Shown piece by piece: positions 5,649 to 57,287 of a stretch of DNA of 64,000 bases. Below the pieces are notes generated by a model. The model made no database searches, had not been told where the DNA came from, and was given only the letters and a program-made list of their open reading frames with translations. Every line of letters starts with the position of its first letter. Within the stretch, counting starts at the first letter, position 1. Position numbers and translations under genes: made by a program. The DNA is from a bacterium (lineage in GTDB: Bacteria > UBP15 > UBA6099 > JAJRTR01), in assembly GCA_024278215.1 (NCBI GenBank), contig JAJRTR010000111.1:1-64000 (forward strand), in the 5' to 3' direction.

Positions 5649-6530
5649 ATGGAGAAAAAAACGATAAAGATACTACTCGTCGAGGACAGCCCCACAGATT
5701 ATCATGTAATAAAAGAAATGCTGTCCGAGTTCGACAACATCAATTACAGGGTGTCCTGGGCGCGCCTTCTTTCCGAAGGGCACGAACAGCTCAAGGAGGA
5801 CGACTTCGATGTTGTACTGCTTGATCTTGCGCTGCCCGACAGCCGGGGTTTCGACACATTCGGCGCGGTGCGCCACGTTGTGCCGCACATACCGATAATT
5901 CTCCTGACCGCCACCGACGACGATGAACTGGCTCTCGATCTCGTCCGCCGCGGCGCGCAGGATTACCTGGTAAAGGGCCAGATCAACAGCAACATACTCG
6001 TGCGTTCGATCAGGTACTCGATCGAGCGGCACCAGATGCACTCGATACTGCGGAATCTCGCTCTTATCGACGAACTTACCGGACTCTACAACAGGCGCGG
6101 CCTCAACGCTATCGCAAAACAACATCTCAAACTTGCACAGAGGACAAAACGCAACATAATAGTTATATGCACGGATATGGACGGTCTCAAGGAAATCAAC
6201 GACACCTGCGGACACCTCGAGGGCGACCGTGCGATTGTCGAGACGGCAAAGATACTCAAGGCGACATTCAGGGAGTCCGATATTGTCGCCCGCTACGGGG
6301 GCGACGAGTTCGTCGTGCTCGCAATCGAGGCGCACGCGGAAAGCAACGATATTCTTGTCAACCGCCTGCGGAGCAATGCCGCCGCCTTCAACTGGGAGTC
6401 CGATTTCGATTTCACTATTTCGCTCAGCATCGGAACGGCTGTTTATAATCCTGAAACCGCCGCCGAACTCGAGGACCTGCTGAGGGAGGCGGACGCGGCG
6501 ATGTATGAGGACAAAAGAAACAAAATCTGA
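5649..6530 (+). CDS. Response regulator diguanylate cyclase (REC-GGDEF)
   Basis: The ~293-residue protein starts with a receiver domain (LLVEDSPTDYH acidic pair, phosphoacceptor Asp in VVLLDLALPDS, conserved LLTAT). It is followed by a GGDEF domain with an intact active-site loop YGGDEFVV. An RxxD inhibitory site (RESD) sits exactly five residues before GGDEF, so product inhibition by c-di-GMP is expected. It should make c-di-GMP from two GTP when phosphorylated. I use the ATG at 5649, nine bases after AGGA; a TTG one codon earlier is possible. It is divergent from the histidine kinase, suggesting a two-component c-di-GMP switch. An HD-GYP protein that could degrade c-di-GMP lies far away at 57565. 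Confidence 0.93.
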   Translation: MEKKTIKILLVEDSPTDYHVIKEMLSEFDNINYRVSWARLLSEGHEQLKEDDFDVVLLDLALPDSRGFDTFGAVRHVVPHIPIILLTATDDDELALDLVRRGAQDYLVKGQINSNILVRSIRYSIERHQMHSILRNLALIDELTGLYNRRGLNAIAKQHLKLAQRTKRNIIVICTDMDGLKEINDTCGHLEGDRAIVETAKILKATFRESDIVARYGGDEFVVLAIEAHAESNDILVNRLRSNAAAFNWESDFDFTISLSIGTAVYNPETAAELEDLLREADAAMYEDKRNKI

Positions 6531-41256: not shown

Positions 41257-44200
41257 ATGAGGCAGGGGCTTGGAAGAGAGATTTTACTTACGGTTGTAGT
41301 GGTTTTGTTAGCGGCAACAACAGCGAAGGCGAATTTCTTGTTGCCTGTGGAATCGATGTGCAACTACAGGTCGCTGATGGACGACGACTGCGTAATTTGC
41401 GAAAATGTGCAAAATTTTACGCGAGATTTTCCGATGGGAAAAGGTTTCGCGCCAAATATTTCCGATGTAACGATTCTGCGGGGAAGCCCGTATCCGAGCG
41501 AGGTTGTGTCGGTGCAGGTAACCGCCACGACCGACGGCGGCGCGACCGACCAGCTCCCCAAAAGCGCGCAGAGTATCCTGTGGGGGCAGATCGCGTTCTC
41601 GATGTCCGGCGGGAACAGCTGGTACACAAATAATTACGACAAGGGAACAAATCAGCATGGCGACGAGAGAATCGGAACCGGAATTCCAATGGATTTCTTC
41701 AAGCATGAAGTGCTGACGGTAAAGAATCAGGGTAATGTCAGATACAAGCAGTACATTTCGGTGCTCAAGCCCTGGGCGGTTTCTCCTGAAGATGACGCTT
41801 TCAAATATGGAGTCGAGCTGAGTGACCCAAAGGATACTCCAGCCCCCAACAGGTGGTGCGGTCTGGATGCTTCGAAATGTAATAAAGCTGCATATCCGGC
41901 CCCGTATGCTGTTGATTGTCCTTATGGTTTCACCTGCCCATTGTATGATATATACCCGCCCAACACCGGCGAAACTGCGGGTCCGTGGCCGACCCCTTAT
42001 TGCGATCAGGCCGACGGGAACTGTAATGTACCCGGTTTCCCGGAAGGCGGCGGAGATCTGCTGGACTACTTCCCGTCGCTCGACCCTGATCCTGATACGG
42101 ATTATCCCAGTATTCCCGGGGCGCCGCTTGTGAGAGTCAACGGTGTGCCGGCAATTGACTGCAGTTTGTATAACGGAGTAGTTAACGAATATCTTGAAGC
42201 GATGGGCGTGACGGCTTCGGACCTCATCAGTGGTGAAAAGCTGCACCCGCTGTGCGATTCTCCTGTGGACAAGGACATACAGGCGGTTTATGACAGATTC
42301 GGAATCTATGCATACAAGCTCGTCCCCGGACAGGGGATGGTAAGGTTCACGGAAGCGCTTGATATGCTTGATGTTGTCGACGCGACATTCTATTCGGCGG
42401 ACATGAAAGTGTGGACGGCTAAAATAGATATGAGCGAAGCGCCTTTCAACGCGCAGAACACTGTCGGCGGATCCTTCATACTGCACCCCACGTTCATGGA
42501 CACATGCGGGAACCTGGCATCAGGCGCGCAGTCGCCGCCTTATCCGCCTGCGATTCCCGGAGAAAGCAACGAAGCTTATGTCGGTGTGTTCGACTATTAC
42601 TATGACCAGATACCGACGGACCAGGATGCGATGAAACAGGTTATAGACGACGATCCTCTGACACAGTGCAGCGCGACGGACACATTGTGCCCGGCTGACG
42701 GGATTCCCAGGGACGAGCGTGTCGAGTGCGATGATCCCAACTGTGAATGCTGCTATAACGAGTGCAGCCCCACGTATTGCACATATAACGGCGCTACCAG
42801 GCCGGATGTCAGCGCACAATGCAACCCGATTGGAGACAATGCCAATCCGCCGGGCTGCGGCCCCGAACACTGGGGCGAACGCGGCATGGCAGAAATCCGT
42901 GAATTCAAGATCAGCCACTCGGCGTCCAATCTCTATGTGAAAATGTCGGTCCAGGGAAAAGTGCAGTTCGGCTGCTACGGCGGATGGTATCCGGTCATCG
43001 GTTGCAACCAATGGGCATTCGGCGGCGGCGAACAGGCAAGTAAATTTCACGGCTATTCATGGCAGTTCCTGAACCTCGAAACGCAGGGAACTTTTTATCT
43101 GATTGTTATTCCGGATATACCGGTATACGGCGCGATACCGCTCTTTATGGACCTCAACAAGCTTCTCGGAGAACTTATGGGAAGCAATTACGACGGAATG
43201 GAACTCGAGCAATATGCAGACGGCGGCGGTTGTAAAAAACCAGGCGAAGATGAGGAACCGCTCGACCCATGCGAGGAGATAGGCTGCACCCCCGAATCCA
43301 ACCCGACGGGTGATTGCGATGAGGACGGTTTTTTGAACTCGACGGATTCCTGTCCCTGCTCCGCCGGCGGCGACGACTCGGAAGACGGATGCCCGCCGCC
43401 CGACCCCGATCCGGGCGGAGACCCGCTGGGTCCCTATAAATGTCCCGCCTGCACCATTGAAAACACGGGCGGCGATCTTTATGTCGAGATGGGGCTCGAA
43501 GAAACACTCGGCCTTACCGACACTTACCACGCTATGGCGATGTTCCTGTCGGTTCACGATCTCGACGTCGACTGGATACTCTACTACGCCTGTCTCAAGG
43601 GCTACAACCTCACGGGACTCGCGCAGGACCAGTCGCCCAGGATACAGTACTACATGCTCGGCGATGTCGCGAAAACAACTGTTACTCTTTCTCAGGACTA
43701 CACCGCACCGAAGATGCCGATGTATGCGCAGGCCTGTCTCGGCAGGTGCGACGAACCTGAACCCGATCCCGACAATCCCGACGGCTACGACAACGACTGC
43801 GATCTCGATGTCGTCGAACCCGTGCATGATCTGGCAGTGGACGAAGGATATGATCCCACCGCAACGCAGATCGAGTTCTCTTTCCAGGAAGTCGTCTCTA
43901 ATAACGATCCTTTAAAAACAGACCTGACGGACCTCGGCGGATATGAAATACAGGTATCCAGGGATAGGGACGGACCGTACGAGACATATTATGTTATGTG
44001 CGCCGACGATGCGGGGGCGGACTGCTACGGCAGGACAACGACAAACGAAGAGTACCTGGCCGGTGTCGTGCATAACAGGGATATACCATCTCTCGACGAA
44101 CCTTATGACGGGACGAATATATGTTCATTCGCGGAACACAACACTCCGCGCGAAGTCCGCAACAGGTTCCCCGATCCGTTCGACTGGCAGGAACCGTACT

Positions 44201-47200
44201 CCGGGTATGGTTTCCCCGGGGAGCCTATTTCCTGCGTGATCGACACCGACTGCGACCCCGTGCATAACGGACGCGACGATGACCTCGACGGCACTGTCGA
44301 CGAAGGCTGCTGGGCGACAAATTGTATCGACGACACAACACAACTGGCGGCAGACGGACAGTCATACTGGTTCAGGGTCAGGGCCTTCGATCTGCCTAAA
44401 CCTATCGACGCCACCTCCACCGCCCTGGTGAACTACAGCGATTATACGGAACCTGTCGGCGCGACTATCCTGCGCAATACGCTTCCACCGGCGAAACCGG
44501 ACGAAGTCGCCGCTTATGCGATGGCGGACGGCGGCAAGGCGAAAGTCGTGTGGAATCCAAACGTGGAATATGACATGGGTGGTTATATGGTTTACAGGTG
44601 TCCGGCCAACCCGCTCGACGCTGTCAAAATGACTCTCGACGGCACACTCGATACCTACTGCGCGAACGACGACAACTACAGGCAGATCATCCCCGAGATC
44701 ATGGACGACCTGAACGGTTACCTCGTCGACGATGGTATGGGATACCGCGAAACGGGACTCGGGACCGGTGCTACGGCGACGGCCCTGCTGAGTTGCCCCA
44801 ACGGTACAGACCCGTCCACTTACGTCAACTCCGACGGTTTCTACATCAAGGACGACAACTGCAACTGGATCGAGTCTACCGACGATGTCGGCGTCGACGG
44901 CGAAGCCGGTACGGGCGACCTCGGCGAAGGCGACCATGTGCCCACTCCCGCCATTCCAGGGCTATACCCCGGCGAACCCCACGCTTATGAATGGATAGAC
45001 TGTTCCGATCTCACGAAGAACGGCATTACAAACGAAGACCTGAAACTTTGCGGAAACATCGAGACGCCCGGCGCATGGTTCGATAACAGCGATCCGCTGT
45101 TCTCGTCGGATGAAGTCGCCCTGCACCTCTTTGATGTGACCGCAGACCCGAACTACGACGAAGCCCTGCACGCACCGGTTATTTTCTATAACGGACTTGT
45201 GGACGGCTACAAATATTACTACAAAATAAAGGCGATTGACGCTCCGTATCTCGGAGATGGTTATAACGATATCAGCACAACGGACAACTGCGACGACGGT
45301 CTCACCGCATACGCTGAAGGTCCGCCACCCACAGGCTGTGTGAACCCCATCGAGGAGCGCACTTGTGATGACAAAGCTATAGCTTATGACTGGACAAGCG
45401 GCGGCAATTGCAGCGAAATATCCGATGTCATGGAAGTGATTCCGGCCGACACGCAGCCGCCGCAGAAACCTATGGCTGTTCAGGCACAGATCGCCAAAAG
45501 CGGCAAATCCGTCACCCTGACATGGGAAACTCCTGTTACGGACCGCACACAGGACCATTTCAACATCTACCGCGCTGTGGGCAACGAAAGACTCTACGCC
45601 TGCGTGCACGGCGGCTGCTCCACACCACCGTACACAGCCGGTTGCGCCTGCGACCCCAACTCGAGTACGCAGCAGTGCAATACCGGTTACATCTGTGATG
45701 TGCCATACAAGATTTGCACCAATCCACCTTATTACAGCGTCACCCCGCAATCCACAGGCTGCGACTCTGTGCCGTACAACGACGGCTGCATCTGCACAGA
45801 TGACTCAGACTGCAACACGGGCATGAGCTGCACTAACCAGTACTCGATATGCCGGCTTGAAAACGAACCCCCCGGCTACCCGTTGAAAAACGATCTGCTG
45901 GATAACGACGGAGACGGCGTCATCGACGAAGAGCAGGAAAACGGTATCGACGACGATGCCGACGGCCTGATAGATGAAGACACCGGCGAAAGAACTTCGA
46001 CCGAATGGAAAATCGGCGAATGCCCGACTCCGGATTATCCTTACTACAGCGCGGTTAACGAGTATCTCCAGGAGCGCATTATCACAAACAGCTTTGTCGA
46101 CAACTCCATCAAACGCGACACGACGTATTACTACAGAATATCAGGTGTGGACAACGCGAAGTACGACCCGCTGGACTTCCAGACGGAAATCACGGACGTG
46201 GACCCGCCGCCGCCCAACGAAGGCACAAGGTCCTTCTCCATCATTGTCAACACGGTGGACTCCGAGGCCCCGGCGCAGGTCGGCGGTGCCTGCACGCACC
46301 CCATTACCCATCTGCCGATGCCCTGCGCCGACAGGCTCGACGAGACTTTCGCCACAAGTGAAACGTCCCTGCCCGTCAGTTGCGCCAACGAAGCGACGAT
46401 GGCATCGACCGATACCGATATGTATGGCAACCAGATCACTGTATGGTGGTACAGAAGTTCGGATGAAGATATCCAGGGCTACTACATCTACCGGGCCGCC
46501 GATACTGCCGGCACAGGTGTCGAACCGCCCGCAGGCGCTTTCGAACAGATCAACCAGACGATGATCGCGCAAACTGCTTCGACAGGCTCGGCACAGACGC
46601 TCTGCTATAAGGATGTCGGGCTCGACAACAATACCGACTATTATTTCTCGGTAACAGCAATTGATACTCACGGCAACGAGAGTTATCTTTCAGAGGTAAC
46701 GGGTCCCATACAGGCCAAAGACACAACCCCCAACATTAAACCGATGTGGGGCACTTCAGTCGGTATCACTTCCGATGTCAACGGCTTGAAGTTGACGCTT
46801 GAATGGATGGCACACGTCACCAACTGCAGCGCATATTCAAGTCCGTCTTCCTGCAATGCCGTCCAGACCTGCTACTGGACAAGCTCGTGCGAGATGCTCG
46901 ATACGGAAAAAGACTTCTCTCATTTCCTCGTTTACAGGGATGAAGACGACAACGATATATGCGACGAAGATGAACTGCTCGGCAGCAGCGGCACTTGCAC
47001 AACAGACGCGCAGTGCGGCTCCGACACTTGTGTAAACGGATTCTGTTGCGACGGGTCGGACTCCTGCAACGGCGAACTTACCGAGTCCACATACGTCGAT
47101 GAAGCGGTGACAAAAGGCGTGGAGGAAATGTACTGCATCAGGGCTGTCGACGAAAACGGAAACCTCAGCGACCTCTCGGACAGCCTGGCCGCAACACCTA

Positions 47201-49725
47201 CGGACCTCGTTGCGCCGGATGCGCCCGAGGGCCTCGCGGCCACCCCGATGTCCAACGCTCAGGTCGGACTCGGCTGGAAGGTTTCCAGCGAAGACGACAT
47301 CGAATGCTACATACCTTATTACAGTACATCCTCGGCCGAGGGCAGTTTCACGGCGATTACTCTCGATCCTTCCGACGAAGGCTACCACACTGTGGTTAAT
47401 TTATATTCGGAAACAATCAAGTGTATCACGGAACCTTACTATATAGACGACGATAGAATTGCCGGCATCGGTTACTACTTCAAAGTCGCGGCTGTCGACA
47501 ACAACGGCAACGTCAGCACGAAATCAAGTTACGCATACATCACGCCCACAGTTACGGACACTACAGCGCCTGCTGTTCCCGACGATGTATACACCAGACC
47601 GGGATTCGACCGTGGCGAATCCGGGGGATCAGTCGTAGCAGGTGAGGACGACGACGGAGACGGATTCATAGACGACACAACCGTCGGCCTGGGCCAGGTG
47701 GAAATATACTGGACGAGAAGTGTCGAGCCGGATGTCGAAAACTACGAAATCTACAAGCTCTCACCGCCCGACACCGCCGACTGCACCTGCGACATAGAAA
47801 ACGACCCCAACGGCGACTGCGACAGCGACGAAACGCCCAACAAGCTGGACGACTGTCCCTGCACACCCACAAGCGCAAACACGAGTCAGTTCGGAAGTTA
47901 CAGCCTGCTCGTGACGCGCAGCGCCGCACAGTCCTGCCCCTCCACAAAGGGCTATCCAGTCAACACTCATGCTTCTGATATATGCTACTACAAAGATATT
48001 ACCGAAGAAGGTGTGTGCCAGGGTTCGCGCTACTGGTATGCAATTGTTCCTGTCGACGAAAACGGCAATTCCACTGCTCTGAACAAGAACAACGCGGTAG
48101 CTGTGACTCCACCGGTCGTGGAAGACACGACAGCGCCGGAAAAACCCGCAAAACCGACCATCGCGCAGAACGAAGCAGGCACGGCCCTGGTCGTCAAGTT
48201 CACAGAGAACGACATGACAGCCGACGACAACGTCGATATACAGGGTTATATGATCTATCGCGACAATCTGCCTAACGGCAGCTTCACTACCAAGGTAGCG
48301 ATAATGAACAACATCGACGAACTCAACTACTGCACTGCCGTGAATCAGCCGCCGTGCTACTGCGACGAAGTCGACGCGACAAAAGCTTGCTTCCTCGACA
48401 TCAGCGTCGTGCAGAACAAGCGGTACTACTACAAAGTATCCGCTTTCGACATGGTCGGAAACATAAGCGAACCGTCAGACTGGAACTTCGCTCTGGCTTC
48501 GCCCAGCGCCCCGGATGCCGTCGATACTTTCGTCGCCAACCCCATGGCGGGTGTGGACTATTCACTTACTCTCTTCTGGGACGGCACGGAACTGTTGAAC
48601 GACCCGAATGTAGCAGGATTCATGATATGGCGGGCCGCGGCCGAAGATGGTTCATACAGCATCATCGATCCGTATCCCGACACGACAGCCGTGGAAAAAT
48701 TCCGAACCACCACATATATTGATACTGGTCTCGTCCAGGGAAACACCTACTGGTACATGATAATAACCGAGTCGCAGGACGGCACGGAAAGCCCCTCTGT
48801 GAAGACGTGTGGCGTGCCCGGCGAAGACATGTTCCCGCCGCTCACACCCACCGGCCTCCTCACCACTCCCGGCAACGCACAGGTGTCATTGGCGTGGGCC
48901 GCGAACACAGAGACCGACCTTGCAGGCTACAATGTCTACAGGGCCACCACGAACGAGCCGAATGCATTCACAAAGATCAATTCCGCCACCGTGACGCAGC
49001 CTTTCTACAGCGACACCACTGTAACCAACAGTACGAGATATTACTATTGTGTGACGTCCTACGACAACTCACAATCGTTCGACACGCAGGGTTGCTACGA
49101 AGACACGATCAACGAGAGCGCCTGCTCGACCGTCAAGAGCGCCACACCGACACCTGTCGGCGTCGGCGGAAGCTCCTCCAGACAGGTCGTTCTGAATAGA
49201 GGCTGGAACATTCTCGCCGTGCCTGAGATTGACGGAACATCGGCCGGCAGAATTACCCCTGACGCTGCCAGAACGGATGCCATGAAGAACAGATTCTTCA
49301 AACTTTCAAGCAAAGCGGAAGGCTATAAAATGCAATCCTTCGACGATGCGTCGATATATGCGGGCGAAGCAATGTGGTATTACGCCGACACAGATGGTGA
49401 AGTGCTGGAATATGACGGCGAGTTGTTCTCCGGAACCTTCTTCGATGTGAATCTTGAAAAAGGCTGGAACATGGTCGGCAACCCGTTCCACTCGGCGATT
49501 CATTGGTTCAATGGCTACATCCAGGTGTCCACGGACGGAGGTAATACCTTCATGCCCCTCAAGGACGCTGTGGATTCCGGTATTGTCCTGTCCGCGAAGA
49601 AATATGTCCCGGATTCGGGATACAGGGAAATCCCCTATGGAGAAAGCAACATAGTATCCTACTTCAGGGGTTTCTGGGTAAATGTTTCGCAACCGGTTGT
49701 TATACGGGTTACAGGTTCAAACTGA
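41257..49725 (+). CDS. Giant secreted multi-domain protein (FN3 repeats, calcium-binding motifs)
   Basis: The 2822-residue protein has a signal peptide (about 1-26). Residues ~27-680 form a unique Cys-containing region. Thrombospondin-3-like acidic repeats lie near 680-720 and 2175-2195 (DCDEDGFLNSTDSCPC, DCDSDETPNKLDDCPC). A MopE-type motif NGRDDDLDGTVDEGC is near 1001, and DNDGDGVIDEEQENGIDDDA near 1548. From ~1070 on, about nine fibronectin type III modules alternate with short Cys-rich inserts; several open with TTAP-x-xP-like linkers (near 1398, 1668, 1986, 2100, 2287, 2522). The C-terminus (~2640-2822) holds two GWN motifs (GWNILAVP, GWNMVGNPF). It is probably a surface adhesin or matrix protein; no sorting signal is evident. 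Confidence 0.85.
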   Translation: MRQGLGREILLTVVVVLLAATTAKANFLLPVESMCNYRSLMDDDCVICENVQNFTRDFPMGKGFAPNISDVTILRGSPYPSEVVSVQVTATTDGGATDQLPKSAQSILWGQIAFSMSGGNSWYTNNYDKGTNQHGDERIGTGIPMDFFKHEVLTVKNQGNVRYKQYISVLKPWAVSPEDDAFKYGVELSDPKDTPAPNRWCGLDASKCNKAAYPAPYAVDCPYGFTCPLYDIYPPNTGETAGPWPTPYCDQADGNCNVPGFPEGGGDLLDYFPSLDPDPDTDYPSIPGAPLVRVNGVPAIDCSLYNGVVNEYLEAMGVTASDLISGEKLHPLCDSPVDKDIQAVYDRFGIYAYKLVPGQGMVRFTEALDMLDVVDATFYSADMKVWTAKIDMSEAPFNAQNTVGGSFILHPTFMDTCGNLASGAQSPPYPPAIPGESNEAYVGVFDYYYDQIPTDQDAMKQVIDDDPLTQCSATDTLCPADGIPRDERVECDDPNCECCYNECSPTYCTYNGATRPDVSAQCNPIGDNANPPGCGPEHWGERGMAEIREFKISHSASNLYVKMSVQGKVQFGCYGGWYPVIGCNQWAFGGGEQASKFHGYSWQFLNLETQGTFYLIVIPDIPVYGAIPLFMDLNKLLGELMGSNYDGMELEQYADGGGCKKPGEDEEPLDPCEEIGCTPESNPTGDCDEDGFLNSTDSCPCSAGGDDSEDGCPPPDPDPGGDPLGPYKCPACTIENTGGDLYVEMGLEETLGLTDTYHAMAMFLSVHDLDVDWILYYACLKGYNLTGLAQDQSPRIQYYMLGDVAKTTVTLSQDYTAPKMPMYAQACLGRCDEPEPDPDNPDGYDNDCDLDVVEPVHDLAVDEGYDPTATQIEFSFQEVVSNNDPLKTDLTDLGGYEIQVSRDRDGPYETYYVMCADDAGADCYGRTTTNEEYLAGVVHNRDIPSLDEPYDGTNICSFAEHNTPREVRNRFPDPFDWQEPYSGYGFPGEPISCVIDTDCDPVHNGRDDDLDGTVDEGCWATNCIDDTTQLAADGQSYWFRVRAFDLPKPIDATSTALVNYSDYTEPVGATILRNTLPPAKPDEVAAYAMADGGKAKVVWNPNVEYDMGGYMVYRCPANPLDAVKMTLDGTLDTYCANDDNYRQIIPEIMDDLNGYLVDDGMGYRETGLGTGATATALLSCPNGTDPSTYVNSDGFYIKDDNCNWIESTDDVGVDGEAGTGDLGEGDHVPTPAIPGLYPGEPHAYEWIDCSDLTKNGITNEDLKLCGNIETPGAWFDNSDPLFSSDEVALHLFDVTADPNYDEALHAPVIFYNGLVDGYKYYYKIKAIDAPYLGDGYNDISTTDNCDDGLTAYAEGPPPTGCVNPIEERTCDDKAIAYDWTSGGNCSEISDVMEVIPADTQPPQKPMAVQAQIAKSGKSVTLTWETPVTDRTQDHFNIYRAVGNERLYACVHGGCSTPPYTAGCACDPNSSTQQCNTGYICDVPYKICTNPPYYSVTPQSTGCDSVPYNDGCICTDDSDCNTGMSCTNQYSICRLENEPPGYPLKNDLLDNDGDGVIDEEQENGIDDDADGLIDEDTGERTSTEWKIGECPTPDYPYYSAVNEYLQERIITNSFVDNSIKRDTTYYYRISGVDNAKYDPLDFQTEITDVDPPPPNEGTRSFSIIVNTVDSEAPAQVGGACTHPITHLPMPCADRLDETFATSETSLPVSCANEATMASTDTDMYGNQITVWWYRSSDEDIQGYYIYRAADTAGTGVEPPAGAFEQINQTMIAQTASTGSAQTLCYKDVGLDNNTDYYFSVTAIDTHGNESYLSEVTGPIQAKDTTPNIKPMWGTSVGITSDVNGLKLTLEWMAHVTNCSAYSSPSSCNAVQTCYWTSSCEMLDTEKDFSHFLVYRDEDDNDICDEDELLGSSGTCTTDAQCGSDTCVNGFCCDGSDSCNGELTESTYVDEAVTKGVEEMYCIRAVDENGNLSDLSDSLAATPTDLVAPDAPEGLAATPMSNAQVGLGWKVSSEDDIECYIPYYSTSSAEGSFTAITLDPSDEGYHTVVNLYSETIKCITEPYYIDDDRIAGIGYYFKVAAVDNNGNVSTKSSYAYITPTVTDTTAPAVPDDVYTRPGFDRGESGGSVVAGEDDDGDGFIDDTTVGLGQVEIYWTRSVEPDVENYEIYKLSPPDTADCTCDIENDPNGDCDSDETPNKLDDCPCTPTSANTSQFGSYSLLVTRSAAQSCPSTKGYPVNTHASDICYYKDITEEGVCQGSRYWYAIVPVDENGNSTALNKNNAVAVTPPVVEDTTAPEKPAKPTIAQNEAGTALVVKFTENDMTADDNVDIQGYMIYRDNLPNGSFTTKVAIMNNIDELNYCTAVNQPPCYCDEVDATKACFLDISVVQNKRYYYKVSAFDMVGNISEPSDWNFALASPSAPDAVDTFVANPMAGVDYSLTLFWDGTELLNDPNVAGFMIWRAAAEDGSYSIIDPYPDTTAVEKFRTTTYIDTGLVQGNTYWYMIITESQDGTESPSVKTCGVPGEDMFPPLTPTGLLTTPGNAQVSLAWAANTETDLAGYNVYRATTNEPNAFTKINSATVTQPFYSDTTVTNSTRYYYCVTSYDNSQSFDTQGCYEDTINESACSTVKSATPTPVGVGGSSSRQVVLNRGWNILAVPEIDGTSAGRITPDAARTDAMKNRFFKLSSKAEGYKMQSFDDASIYAGEAMWYYADTDGEVLEYDGELFSGTFFDVNLEKGWNMVGNPFHSAIHWFNGYIQVSTDGGNTFMPLKDAVDSGIVLSAKKYVPDSGYREIPYGESNIVSYFRGFWVNVSQPVVIRVTGSN

Positions 49726-53287: not shown

Positions 53288-54577
53288 GTGAAGGAGAATA
53301 TAGTAAATCTCGGACTTTTTGGGTTCGGTACTATCGGCGCGGGCGTTGTGCGGCTGCTCGATGCCAACGCCGATGTGATAGAGGAGAAAACCGGCTCGAA
53401 ACTCGCGCTGAAAAAAATCGTCGACATCGACACGGAAACCGACCGGGGCGTCGAATTGCCCGAAGGCGTTCTTTCGGCGGACGCGGCGGACATTATCGAC
53501 AACGACGATATTGGCATTGTGATAGAACTGATCGGCGGCGCGGGAGTCGCCCGGGAAATAGTTGCAAACGCGCTCCAAAAAGGCAAACATGTCGTGACTG
53601 CCAACAAAGAGCTTATCGCGAAACATGGACCGGAACTTGTGCGGCTTGCCGGGCAGAACGGTGTGCGCATCCTTTTCGAGGCCAGCGTGGGAGGCGGGAT
53701 ACCCGTGCTCACTCCGCTGCTCGGTTGTCTCCGCGGCAACCGCATCAACAGGGTGCTCGGCATCGTTAACGGAACCACCAATTATATACTTACGCAGATG
53801 GAAGCGACCGGCGCTGATTTCGATGTAATACTTAAGGAAGCGCAGGAACTCGGCTACGCGGAGGCTGATCCCACAAACGATATCGAGGGTTTCGACGCCG
53901 CGTATAAAGCCGTTATTCTCGCCTCGGCGGCTTTCGGCAAGAAGGTCGATGTCTCCTCGATCATGCGTGAAGGCATAACGAAAGTCGGCATGGCGGATAT
54001 GGAATATGCCCGCGAGCTGGGCTACACGATAAAGCTGCTCGCCGTGCTCGAGGACAACGGTGCCGCCGTGGACGTGCGAGTGCATCCATGCCTCCTGCCG
54101 TGCTCGCATCCGCTTGCTTCGATTAATGGTGTGCTGAACGCGGTGTATCTCGAAGGCGACCCCATCGGGCCGCTGATGTTTGTGGGGCAGGGCGCCGGTC
54201 CGTCCGCGACGAGCAGCGCCGTCATAGGCGATGTCCTCGAACTGCTGACATCCGGCACATCCGCCGCGGGCGGCACTGCGTGGAACATATTCGCCGACTC
54301 CGAACTTGCGCCGGTCACCAGCGTTTCAAACGCTTTTTATATGCGGCTCACCGTCTCGGATATGCCCGGCGTGCTCGCGGATGTGGGCGGTTGTCTTGGC
54401 AGACTCGATGTGAGCCTGGCTTCTGTGGTGCAGAAAAAGACCGACGGCAAAAGCGCCGAACTCGTAATGCTCACGCACTCTGTGAACGAAGGCAATATGG
54501 CGAAGGCGCTCGAGCAGCTTAAAGACCTTAAATGCGTGGAGACAATATCGACCGCCCTCAGGGTGTTCGATTCCTGA
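53288..54577 (+). CDS. hom: Homoserine dehydrogenase
   Basis: The 429-residue protein has the NAD(P)-binding GLFGFGTIGAGVV, the central KGKHVVTANKELIAKHG, GGGIPVLTPLL and GIVNGTTNYILTQM, and a C-terminal ACT domain (RLTVSDMPGVLADV). It reduces aspartate semialdehyde to homoserine; the ACT domain usually gives feedback control by threonine. It starts at a GTG (53288) with GGAGG upstream. The apgM-type gene follows after 28 bp, a pairing seen where an apgM-like enzyme is proposed to act as homoserine kinase. Confidence 0.96.
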   Translation: MKENIVNLGLFGFGTIGAGVVRLLDANADVIEEKTGSKLALKKIVDIDTETDRGVELPEGVLSADAADIIDNDDIGIVIELIGGAGVAREIVANALQKGKHVVTANKELIAKHGPELVRLAGQNGVRILFEASVGGGIPVLTPLLGCLRGNRINRVLGIVNGTTNYILTQMEATGADFDVILKEAQELGYAEADPTNDIEGFDAAYKAVILASAAFGKKVDVSSIMREGITKVGMADMEYARELGYTIKLLAVLEDNGAAVDVRVHPCLLPCSHPLASINGVLNAVYLEGDPIGPLMFVGQGAGPSATSSAVIGDVLELLTSGTSAAGGTAWNIFADSELAPVTSVSNAFYMRLTVSDMPGVLADVGGCLGRLDVSLASVVQKKTDGKSAELVMLTHSVNEGNMAKALEQLKDLKCVETISTALRVFDS

Positions 54578-54605
54578 AACAACACACCTGAACGGAATCC
54601 TGGAT

Positions 54606-55805
54606 ATGAAGAAAGTCCTTGTAATAATAGGCGATGGAATGGCGGACGAACCTGTGGCGGCTCTCGGTGGGAAAACCCCGATGGAAGTGGCCGAAACTCC
54701 GGTTATGGACGACCTCGCCCGCAGGGGCACTGTCGGCCTCACCAACAATGTGCCTGACGGAATGGAGCCGGGCAGCGATGTCGCTATCATGTCGATTCTC
54801 GGGTACGACCCGGCTGCTTATTACACGGGGCGCGGCCCTCTCGAAGCGGTCAGCATGGGTGTCGAAATCGACGCGGAAGAAACGGCTTTCCGCTGTAATC
54901 TCATTTCTCTTGACGGCGGCAAACTCCTCGATTACAGCGCGGGGCACATCACTACTGAAGAATCCGGGGAAATTATCGAAACACTCAAGCAACAACTCGA
55001 CAGTGATTCCTTTCAGTTTCATCACGGTGTGAGTTTCAGGAACCTGCTTGTCGGACGCGGCGATTTCTCGCGTGTGTCGACCAGTGCGCCCCACGACCAC
55101 ATGGACGAACGCTGGGCGGACTTCCTTCCCTGCGGCGGTGGTTCGGACAATCTGCGGGAGATAATGAGCAGGTCGAGGGCGATTCTGGCGGATCATCCAG
55201 TGAATAAAGCACGCCGTGAAAAGGGCAAAAGGTCCGCGAACTCGATATGGCCGTGGAGCGGCGGCGGCCTGCCGTAAATCACGCCGTTCAAAGAGAAATA
55301 CGGGCTCGGTGGCGGTGTTGTGTCGGCAGTCGATCTTGTACAGGGACTCGGCACTGTCGCCGGTCTGGACGCTGTCTCCGTCGAGGGCGCCACCGGGCTT
55401 GTGGACACAAATTACGAGGGGAAAGTCAGCGCGACGCTCGATATTCTCGAAAAAAATGATTTCGCGCTGATCCACCTCGAAGGGCCCGACGAAGCGGGCC
55501 ATATCGGTGATCCCGACCTGAAGATTGAAGGCATAAGGCGTCTGGACAGCCTTGTCGTCGCTCCGCTTGTGGAAGCGATAATGAAGTATCCCGAATATGT
55601 GTTGTTTATTCTCCCCGACCACCCCACGCCCCTGCGGTTGCGGACTCATACGACGAACCCGGTTCCATTTATCGCGCTTGCCGCAGGTGTGAGCCTGCCG
55701 GAAACACGCGCTGCCGCTTATTGCGAAAAGGAAGCTGCCGCGACGGGTATTTCCATACACGATGGGCACACGCTCCTCGGCAGGTTGCTCGGCGGCTGGC
55801 TGTAG
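54606..55805 (+). pseudogene. apgM-type phosphoglycerate mutase / proposed homoserine kinase, interrupted by an in-frame TAA
   Basis: The reading frame has 400 codons, the usual size, and runs from MKKVLVIIGDGMADEPVAAL (metal-binding Asp) to GRLLGGWL. It contains the typical NNVPDGMEPGSDVAIMSILG, FHHGVSFRNLLV and HLEGPDEAGHIGDPDLKIEG. A TAA at 55275-55277 interrupts it after WPWSGGGLP; the frame then continues ITPFKEKYGLGGG with no shift. Aligned with family members, exactly one sense codon is replaced. Both halves keep family motifs, so the mutation or read error is recent. The family covers cofactor-independent phosphoglycerate mutases and, next to hom, suspected homoserine kinases. As written it would give a 223-residue fragment. 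Confidence 0.85.
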
Positions 55806-55850: not shown

Positions 55851-57287
55851 ATGAACAATATAACAAGCACAGTGTTGCAACGAATACGCGAGGTCTGCGT
55901 GCGCTTCGAGCTGTTTGAGCGCGGCGAGTGTGTTGTGGCGGCCGTGTCGGGCGGTGCGGACTCGATATGTATGCTGCACGCGCTGGACGTGCTTAAAAAC
56001 GAGTTCGCGGGCGACATTATTGTCGCACATCTCAACCATGGCCTGCGCGGGCCTGCCGCCGATGCCGACGCGGAATTCACAAAGTGCAAAGCGCTGGAGA
56101 TGGGCCTCGATTACAGGATCGGGCGAATAGGCGTCGATGTGAAGATGCCGGACGGGGCGGTCGCGACCGAGGCGGCGCTCAGGTCGGCGCGTTATGAGTT
56201 TCTCAACAGGGTTGCACTCGAGACGAACGCTGCACGCATCGCCACGGCACATACGCTCGACGACCAGGCGGAAACTGTGCTTATGCGTTTTCTCAAAGGT
56301 GCGACTGTTACCGGCCTCGCCGGCATAAGGCCTGTGAATGGAAATATTGTCCGACCACTACTGTACGTTGCGAGAAATGAAGTCGAGGCATACTGCGCCG
56401 ACAATAAACTCGAATTTCGGACGGATGAAACAAATTGGGACGAGAAATATCTGCGCAACAGGATTCGACACAGGCTTATACCGGCGCTTGAAAAGGAATA
56501 CAACCCACAACTGCGCGGAACACTTGCGAAAATGGCCGCGAACTTCCGCAGAGACTGCGAATATCTTGACGGTGCGGCGGAGAAGATTTATTCCGATGCC
56601 GTGCTGAAGAAAACGGAAGGTGAGATCGAACTCGATACAGGCAAACTGCGCCGATTGCACAGCGCCGTATTGTCCCGTGTTATCCTTATAGCCTTGTACG
56701 ATCTGAGCGACGCCGTGGGCGGCGGAAGGCTCGAAAGCGTGCATGTCGATGAAATCTGTGAAATGATCGGCAGGAGCGACGCGGGTATTTCCGCCACACT
56801 GCCGGGTGGGATAACCGTAACGAAAAGATACCGCGAACTCGTGTTTTCGATGTCCGGCGGGAAACCACCGCCGATAAAAGGAGAATTCGTTATACCCTTG
56901 AAGGATGGCCGCTGCATGATTCCCGAAGCCGGGCTGAACCTTGATATTTGCACACTGCCTTTTTCTGTGGAAATGATGTCGAACGGCGACAGGATGACCG
57001 AATACTTCGACGCCGAACGCATCGGGGGCCGCGACCTTGCAATAAGATTTCCTCGCGAAGGCGACCGTTTCCGACCGCTTGGGATGGATCATGCGAAAAA
57101 ATTGTCGGATTTTTTTGTGGATGAAAAAGTCGACAGGAACCGGCGCGGGCAAGTGCCGCTACTGGTGTGCGGGGGCGATATTATGTGGATAATCGGTCGG
57201 CGCATCGACCAGAGATTCCGGCTCGAGCCGGGCAGGACAAAAGCTGTTTTGAAAGTGAGCGTAACAGCAAACCGGGAACTTCACTGA
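55851..57287 (+). CDS. tilS: tRNA(Ile)-lysidine synthase
   Basis: The 478-residue protein has the PP-loop VAAVSGGADSICMLHAL, AHLNHGLRG, ATAHTLDDQAETVLMRFLKG and WDEKYLRNRIRHRLIPAL, all typical of TilS, plus a C-terminal TilS-C domain (FPREGDRFRPLGM...KLSDFFVDEKV). It ligates lysine to C34 of tRNA-Ile(CAU), changing codon reading from AUG to AUA, and is essential. The start is the ATG at 55851. It follows the apgM-type gene by 45 bp. Confidence 0.95.
   Translation: MNNITSTVLQRIREVCVRFELFERGECVVAAVSGGADSICMLHALDVLKNEFAGDIIVAHLNHGLRGPAADADAEFTKCKALEMGLDYRIGRIGVDVKMPDGAVATEAALRSARYEFLNRVALETNAARIATAHTLDDQAETVLMRFLKGATVTGLAGIRPVNGNIVRPLLYVARNEVEAYCADNKLEFRTDETNWDEKYLRNRIRHRLIPALEKEYNPQLRGTLAKMAANFRRDCEYLDGAAEKIYSDAVLKKTEGEIELDTGKLRRLHSAVLSRVILIALYDLSDAVGGGRLESVHVDEICEMIGRSDAGISATLPGGITVTKRYRELVFSMSGGKPPPIKGEFVIPLKDGRCMIPEAGLNLDICTLPFSVEMMSNGDRMTEYFDAERIGGRDLAIRFPREGDRFRPLGMDHAKKLSDFFVDEKVDRNRRGQVPLLVCGGDIMWIIGRRIDQRFRLEPGRTKAVLKVSVTANRELH

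Follow-up and report, generated by a model that had tools for sequence, protein, structure and literature searches.

The window, the whole stretch of 64,000 nucleotides that was analysed, carries an ApgM-type gene (hereafter apgM) with one stop codon inside its reading frame (Table 1). The frame comprises 400 codons, ends in a terminal TAG and contains exactly one internal stop without any frameshift, bearing out the first-pass annotation, which had described a single in-frame TAA in a frame of this length. Its upstream neighbour, hom, matches NF004976 with 516.7 bits (cut-off 205) together with PF00742, PF03447 and PF01842, and hom also lies directly upstream of apgM in the same-order genomes G001 and G004. 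An antisense open reading frame of 403 codons (54558-55769, minus strand) stays open over nearly the whole of apgM and is presumably an effect of composition. The largest open reading frame of the window is a single frame of 2822 codons at 41257-49725.

The translation of apgM, scored with X placed at the stop, exceeded the cut-offs of three profiles: TIGR02535, "proposed homoserine kinase" in NCBIfam (499.4 bits against 446.3), NF003242 (516.2 against 426) and TIGR00306 (480.3 against 320). Each match forms one unbroken stretch spanning the stop. GC3 is 0.646 before the stop and 0.646 after it. Among the candidates in the window, judged by eye, apgM holds the sole clear internal stop.

Table 1. 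Positions of the apgM locus, of related genes and of internal stops in the source genome (G000); C84 is the contig of the window, and positions without a contig name are those of the window.
Feature	Position	Strand	Remarks
hom, homoserine dehydrogenase with ACT domain	53288..54577	+	intact, directly upstream of apgM; NF004976, Pfam
ApgM-type gene (proposed homoserine kinase family TIGR02535)	54606..55805	+	one stop inside; profiles, alignment
Internal TAA, apgM	55275-55277 (C84:55275)	+	codon 224 of 399, highly variable family column
tilS-type gene	55851..57287	+	intact, directly downstream of apgM; PF01171, PF11734
thrB, classical homoserine kinase	C86:9889-10803 (L029:1501-2415)		one in-frame TAG
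Second ApgM-type gene	C22:3514-4791	-	uninterrupted; NF003160 561 bits, cut-off 468
TAA, aspartate dehydrogenase-like gene	C84:70037		
TAA, AMP-binding gene	C31:3365		
TAA, hrcA	C39:2846		
TAA, hsdM	C16:2344		
TAA, large protein	C112:27972		by eye, lacks profile confirmation
TAG, thrB	C86:10057 (L029:1669)		
TAG, glutamine synthetase-like gene	C86:11457		
TAG, PAS histidine kinase	C115:47598 (L051:7598)		adjoins response regulator
TAG, response regulator	C115:48632 (L051:8632)		adjoins PAS histidine kinase
TGA, phage-type HK97 major capsid gene (C29:10107-11444, L150)	C29:11145		prophage-like stretch

Conservation around the stop and related genes

The genomes compared were the source genome (G000) and 8 others, five of which, from the same order, hold uninterrupted apgM relatives that are 58-59% identical. 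A wider alignment of relatives took in the best 80 of 98 loci, and the nearest loci among the matches listed include bacterium UBP15_UBA6099 and three other bacterial metagenome-assembled genomes. None of the best 80 of 98 relatives carries an internal stop, the one displayed in the alignment at locus L228 being its own terminal stop. At columns conserved to at least 95% in this set, apgM keeps 36 of 38 upstream of the stop and 27 of 28 downstream (63 of 66 in total), in agreement with the family motifs that the earlier annotation had recognised on both sides of the TAA. That annotation had also aligned the stop to one ordinary residue of family members; a single codon position is indeed affected, but the residue there varies, with 14 types among the best 80 of 98 relatives (R 15, S 12, K 11, Q 11, A 10, E 6 and others). 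Ranked from most to least conserved in the same alignment, the column is number 376 of 399, and the five same-order relatives have A or S at this position. Conserved columns and GC3 give no sign of decay or relaxed constraint behind the stop, in which respect a very young pseudogene would look alike. The retained columns and equal GC3 indicate that selection on apgM either continues or ceased only very recently.

A real stop had been expected to cost the strain a proposed homoserine kinase or phosphoglycerate mutase, and another gene for either enzyme had been proposed as a thing to look for elsewhere in the genome. For phosphoglycerate mutase such a gene exists, the second ApgM-type gene on contig C22, and since it is intact the implied loss of this enzyme is unsupported. 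The C22 gene shares its superfamily with the window apgM at 28% identity but belongs to a different NCBIfam equivalog, reaches only 153.5 bits against TIGR02535 (cut-off 446.3) and does not adjoin hom. Among seven genomes gpmI (TIGR01307) is above its cut-off in none, and gpmA (TIGR01258) is below cut-off in the source genome and above it in G001, G003 and G006. For homoserine kinase the search found thrB on contig C86 (TIGR00191, 210.9 bits against 168.25), but this gene is itself interrupted by a TAG, at a position that is Lys in all four full relatives. A backup kinase of the thrB_alt type was rejected, TIGR00938 being found in 0 of 7 genomes. Three genes of the source genome exceed the thrC cut-off, all uninterrupted. 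With hom and the three thrC-family genes undamaged, each of the two homoserine kinase candidates is interrupted by a single stop; the glutamine synthetase-like gene 1.4 kb beyond thrB also has one in-frame stop.

Internal stops in the source and sister genomes

The survey of internal stops covered 55 stretches with 1,226,906 bases (27%) of the 4,548,219-base draft source genome. Each stop was scored for same-frame coding signal on both flanks, and internal stops were chosen by eye among all rows scoring at least 0.08, excluding those in which another gene begins right after the stop and those with an antisense-like reading. About 12 internal stops were found, comprising 6 TAA, 5 TAG and 1 TGA. 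Profiles support 11 of these, namely 10 that are spanned by at least one profile in a single stretch, and apgM. Every profile-confirmed case is a single stop in an otherwise intact frame. On simulated stops in this genome the scan had a sensitivity of 47% at a score of 0.1, implying a true number about double that observed, roughly 2-3% of genes. An intrinsic scan for frameshifts, whose sensitivity was only 12%, yielded 21 candidates that lack a nearby start; these were read by eye and are weak.

Uniform single-base changes acting on the codon usage of the source genome predict shares of 0.41 for TAG, 0.39 for TAA and 0.20 for TGA, with which the observed codons agree (P = 0.28 for at most one TGA among 12). 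Codon scores had raised the idea that TGA is avoided among the stops, an idea abandoned because one TGA occurs and no more than 20% were expected. Two pairs of stops each lie within 1.5 kb, one in thrB and the glutamine synthetase-like gene, the other in the PAS histidine kinase and response regulator, an arrangement with a probability of 0.009 under random placement.

In the sister genome G001 (554,429 bases, scan sensitivity 50%, rows read by eye) no clear ordinary internal stop was seen, the exceptions being a TAA that is unclear and a single TGA in a peroxiredoxin. At the rate of the source genome 5.9 stops would be expected there, giving P(0) = 0.003 and P(≤1) = 0.02. The peroxiredoxin-like TGA (G001:C138:33498) stands in frame at a cysteine position (FYPGDFTFV*PTE) and looks like selenocysteine, because a tRNA-Sec match in G001 lies above cut-off. 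Compared by tblastn with their G001 relatives, 2 of 41 source-genome genes proved broken, hrcA through a stop and a flippase-like gene on C22 through a frameshift; the reverse check found no convincing interruption in 41 G001 genes. The C22 case, near position 6130 (L048), is a membrane protein gene that seems frameshifted relative to its uninterrupted G001 relative. Rows dropped from the forward comparison were the antisense-like stop row of C6_-_19209_19986 and two frameshift rows, C121 representing two genes and C42 two copies. From the reverse comparison, three stop rows (antisense-like, at the very C-terminus, and upstream of the gene start) and possible-frameshift rows from multi-copy matches were dropped.

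Explanations for the stop

Similar single stops in other healthy-looking genes make the stop in apgM most likely an error or an ordinary recent mutation. The two-way choice between gene loss and assembly error posed in the first-pass annotation therefore stands, and the survey of stops tips it toward error. An assembly error or a strain mixture is accordingly the reading we favour, with moderate confidence. The TAA would then be one of many scattered single-base interruptions in a draft metagenome-type assembly of an uncultured bacterium belonging to the order of UBP15_UBA6099, arising from a consensus error or from collapsed mixed strains, and the living cell would possess an intact hom-linked enzyme of the ApgM family. 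Single lesions, a random mix of stop codons, unrelated affected genes, a clean sister genome, and stops in both homoserine kinase candidates beside undamaged hom and thrC genes all fit error, and we infer that most internal stops of the source genome are of this origin. A lineage now losing genes would give the same picture, and fits less well. The two close pairs could be co-decay of neighbouring genes or patches of error, either of which fits; an error patch with two stops per 1.4 kb should also contain odd residues, and none was noticed in passing. That both homoserine kinase candidates are struck would be a further coincidence; at the survey rate, the chance that any one named gene is hit comes to a few per cent.

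A true recent nonsense mutation, through which the strain would have lost its hom-linked ApgM protein, is the chief competing explanation, possible but more doubtful. The TAA is present in the assembled sequence, and premature stops are a common path to young bacterial pseudogenes, accounting for 131 of 346 in Salmonella according to PMC2916853. The TAG in thrB, the other homoserine kinase candidate, points in the same direction, and with it the strain could be auxotrophic for threonine, at an early stage of losing genes. Gene loss is also suggested by the neighbouring genes struck in two pairs and by the flippase-like gene on C22, whose frame seems shifted when compared with that of its G001 relative. 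Against mutation, hom and the three thrC-family genes are intact, and the confirmed cases are all single-stop and otherwise intact. Interruption of roughly 2-3% of genes would also need very many very young, simultaneous losses, of which G001 has almost none.

Read-through of UAA and UAG by a suppressor tRNA or codon reassignment, yielding a full-length apgM enzyme, is very unlikely. Its attraction lies in the 11 of about 12 internal stops that are UAA or UAG, and in the clear residue of relatives at the stop often being Glu (HrcA; the PaaK-type ligase, 3 of 3; the closest match of HsdM; and one response regulator among those aligned), a preference that is weak given the few clear cases in these alignments. 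Aligned residues differ by position among Glu, Lys and Gly, and apgM and the aspartate dehydrogenase, glutamine synthetase and AMP-binding genes have no clear aligned residue. The single UGA, in the capsid gene, aligns to Gly and the thrB stop to Lys, so that no single inserted residue fits. Release factor RF1 is intact and stop-free (473.6 bits against a cut-off of 423.25), and a second uninterrupted release factor match of 263 bits is presumably RF2. None of 46 tRNA matches reads UAA or UAG, all having ordinary anticodons, in a set that is incomplete, with tRNA-Asn unseen and genome completeness at about 95%, so that a further tRNA may have escaped notice. TAA (205) and TAG (147) end 352 of 695 long open reading frames, indicating that neither is avoided as a terminator.

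The first-pass annotation had held that a TAA is not explained by known recoding. Its rejection of selenocysteine and pyrrolysine stands: the codon is TAA and no tRNA-Sec match of the source genome reaches cut-off, and the best PylS match has 38.9 bits against 178.15. The codon by itself is insufficient for the wider claim; it is the intact RF1 and RF2, the ordinary anticodons, the sub-threshold PylS match, the use of TAA and TAG as terminators and the differing residues that make recoding unlikely. An unrecognised ochre-type suppressor, under which UAA and UAG would be tolerated in dozens of genes and apgM and thrB would still be made at full length, is exceedingly improbable. Read-through would be surprising if true, and the present tests speak against it. 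A split enzyme, formed by a 223-residue protein and a second protein starting at the GTG at 55320 (a listed frame of 161 amino acids, 55320-55805), is scarcely credible, given that none of the best 80 of 98 relatives is split, no ribosome-binding site is evident by eye ahead of 55320 and the metalloenzyme domain would be severed.

Predicted function and comparison with known systems

Judged by its family and its adjacency to hom, an intact apgM would more likely be a homoserine kinase of the ThrB2 type than a glycolytic phosphoglycerate mutase. In PMC9026213, ThrB2 is a predicted homoserine kinase that adjoins hom, asd or thrC and occurs mostly where thrB is missing; it shares about 35% identity with archaeal phosphoglycerate mutase, and many ThrB2 proteins are annotated as that enzyme. 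The window apgM resembles ThrB2 as described there in its family score class and in having hom as neighbour, and differs in the stop inside its frame. In the gut genomes of that study, thrB and thrB2 are mostly mutually exclusive, whereas G001, G003 and G004 have both, uninterrupted.

The consequences depend on the origin of the stop. If it is an error, the base-level error load of one draft genome can mimic losses of pathway steps, and with both homoserine kinase candidates struck the result would be an auxotrophy that does not exist. A real stop would mean that the strain has been caught early in the loss of threonine synthesis, with hom and the threonine synthase genes kept. Among the 10 of 182 papers listed by a literature search on premature stops in metagenome-assembled genomes, no title bears on the question of the apgM stop, and a search for UBP15 returned an unrelated protein name only.

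PMC2916853 warns that false pseudogenes arise from sequencing errors, homopolymer frameshifts above all. The stop in apgM is known from one draft assembly alone, in which it differs from the pseudogenes treated in that article. Like the young single-lesion pseudogenes described there, apgM is sound apart from a single premature stop. The interrupted apgM is an ordinary feature, and its value lies mainly in the warning that it gives for draft genomes.
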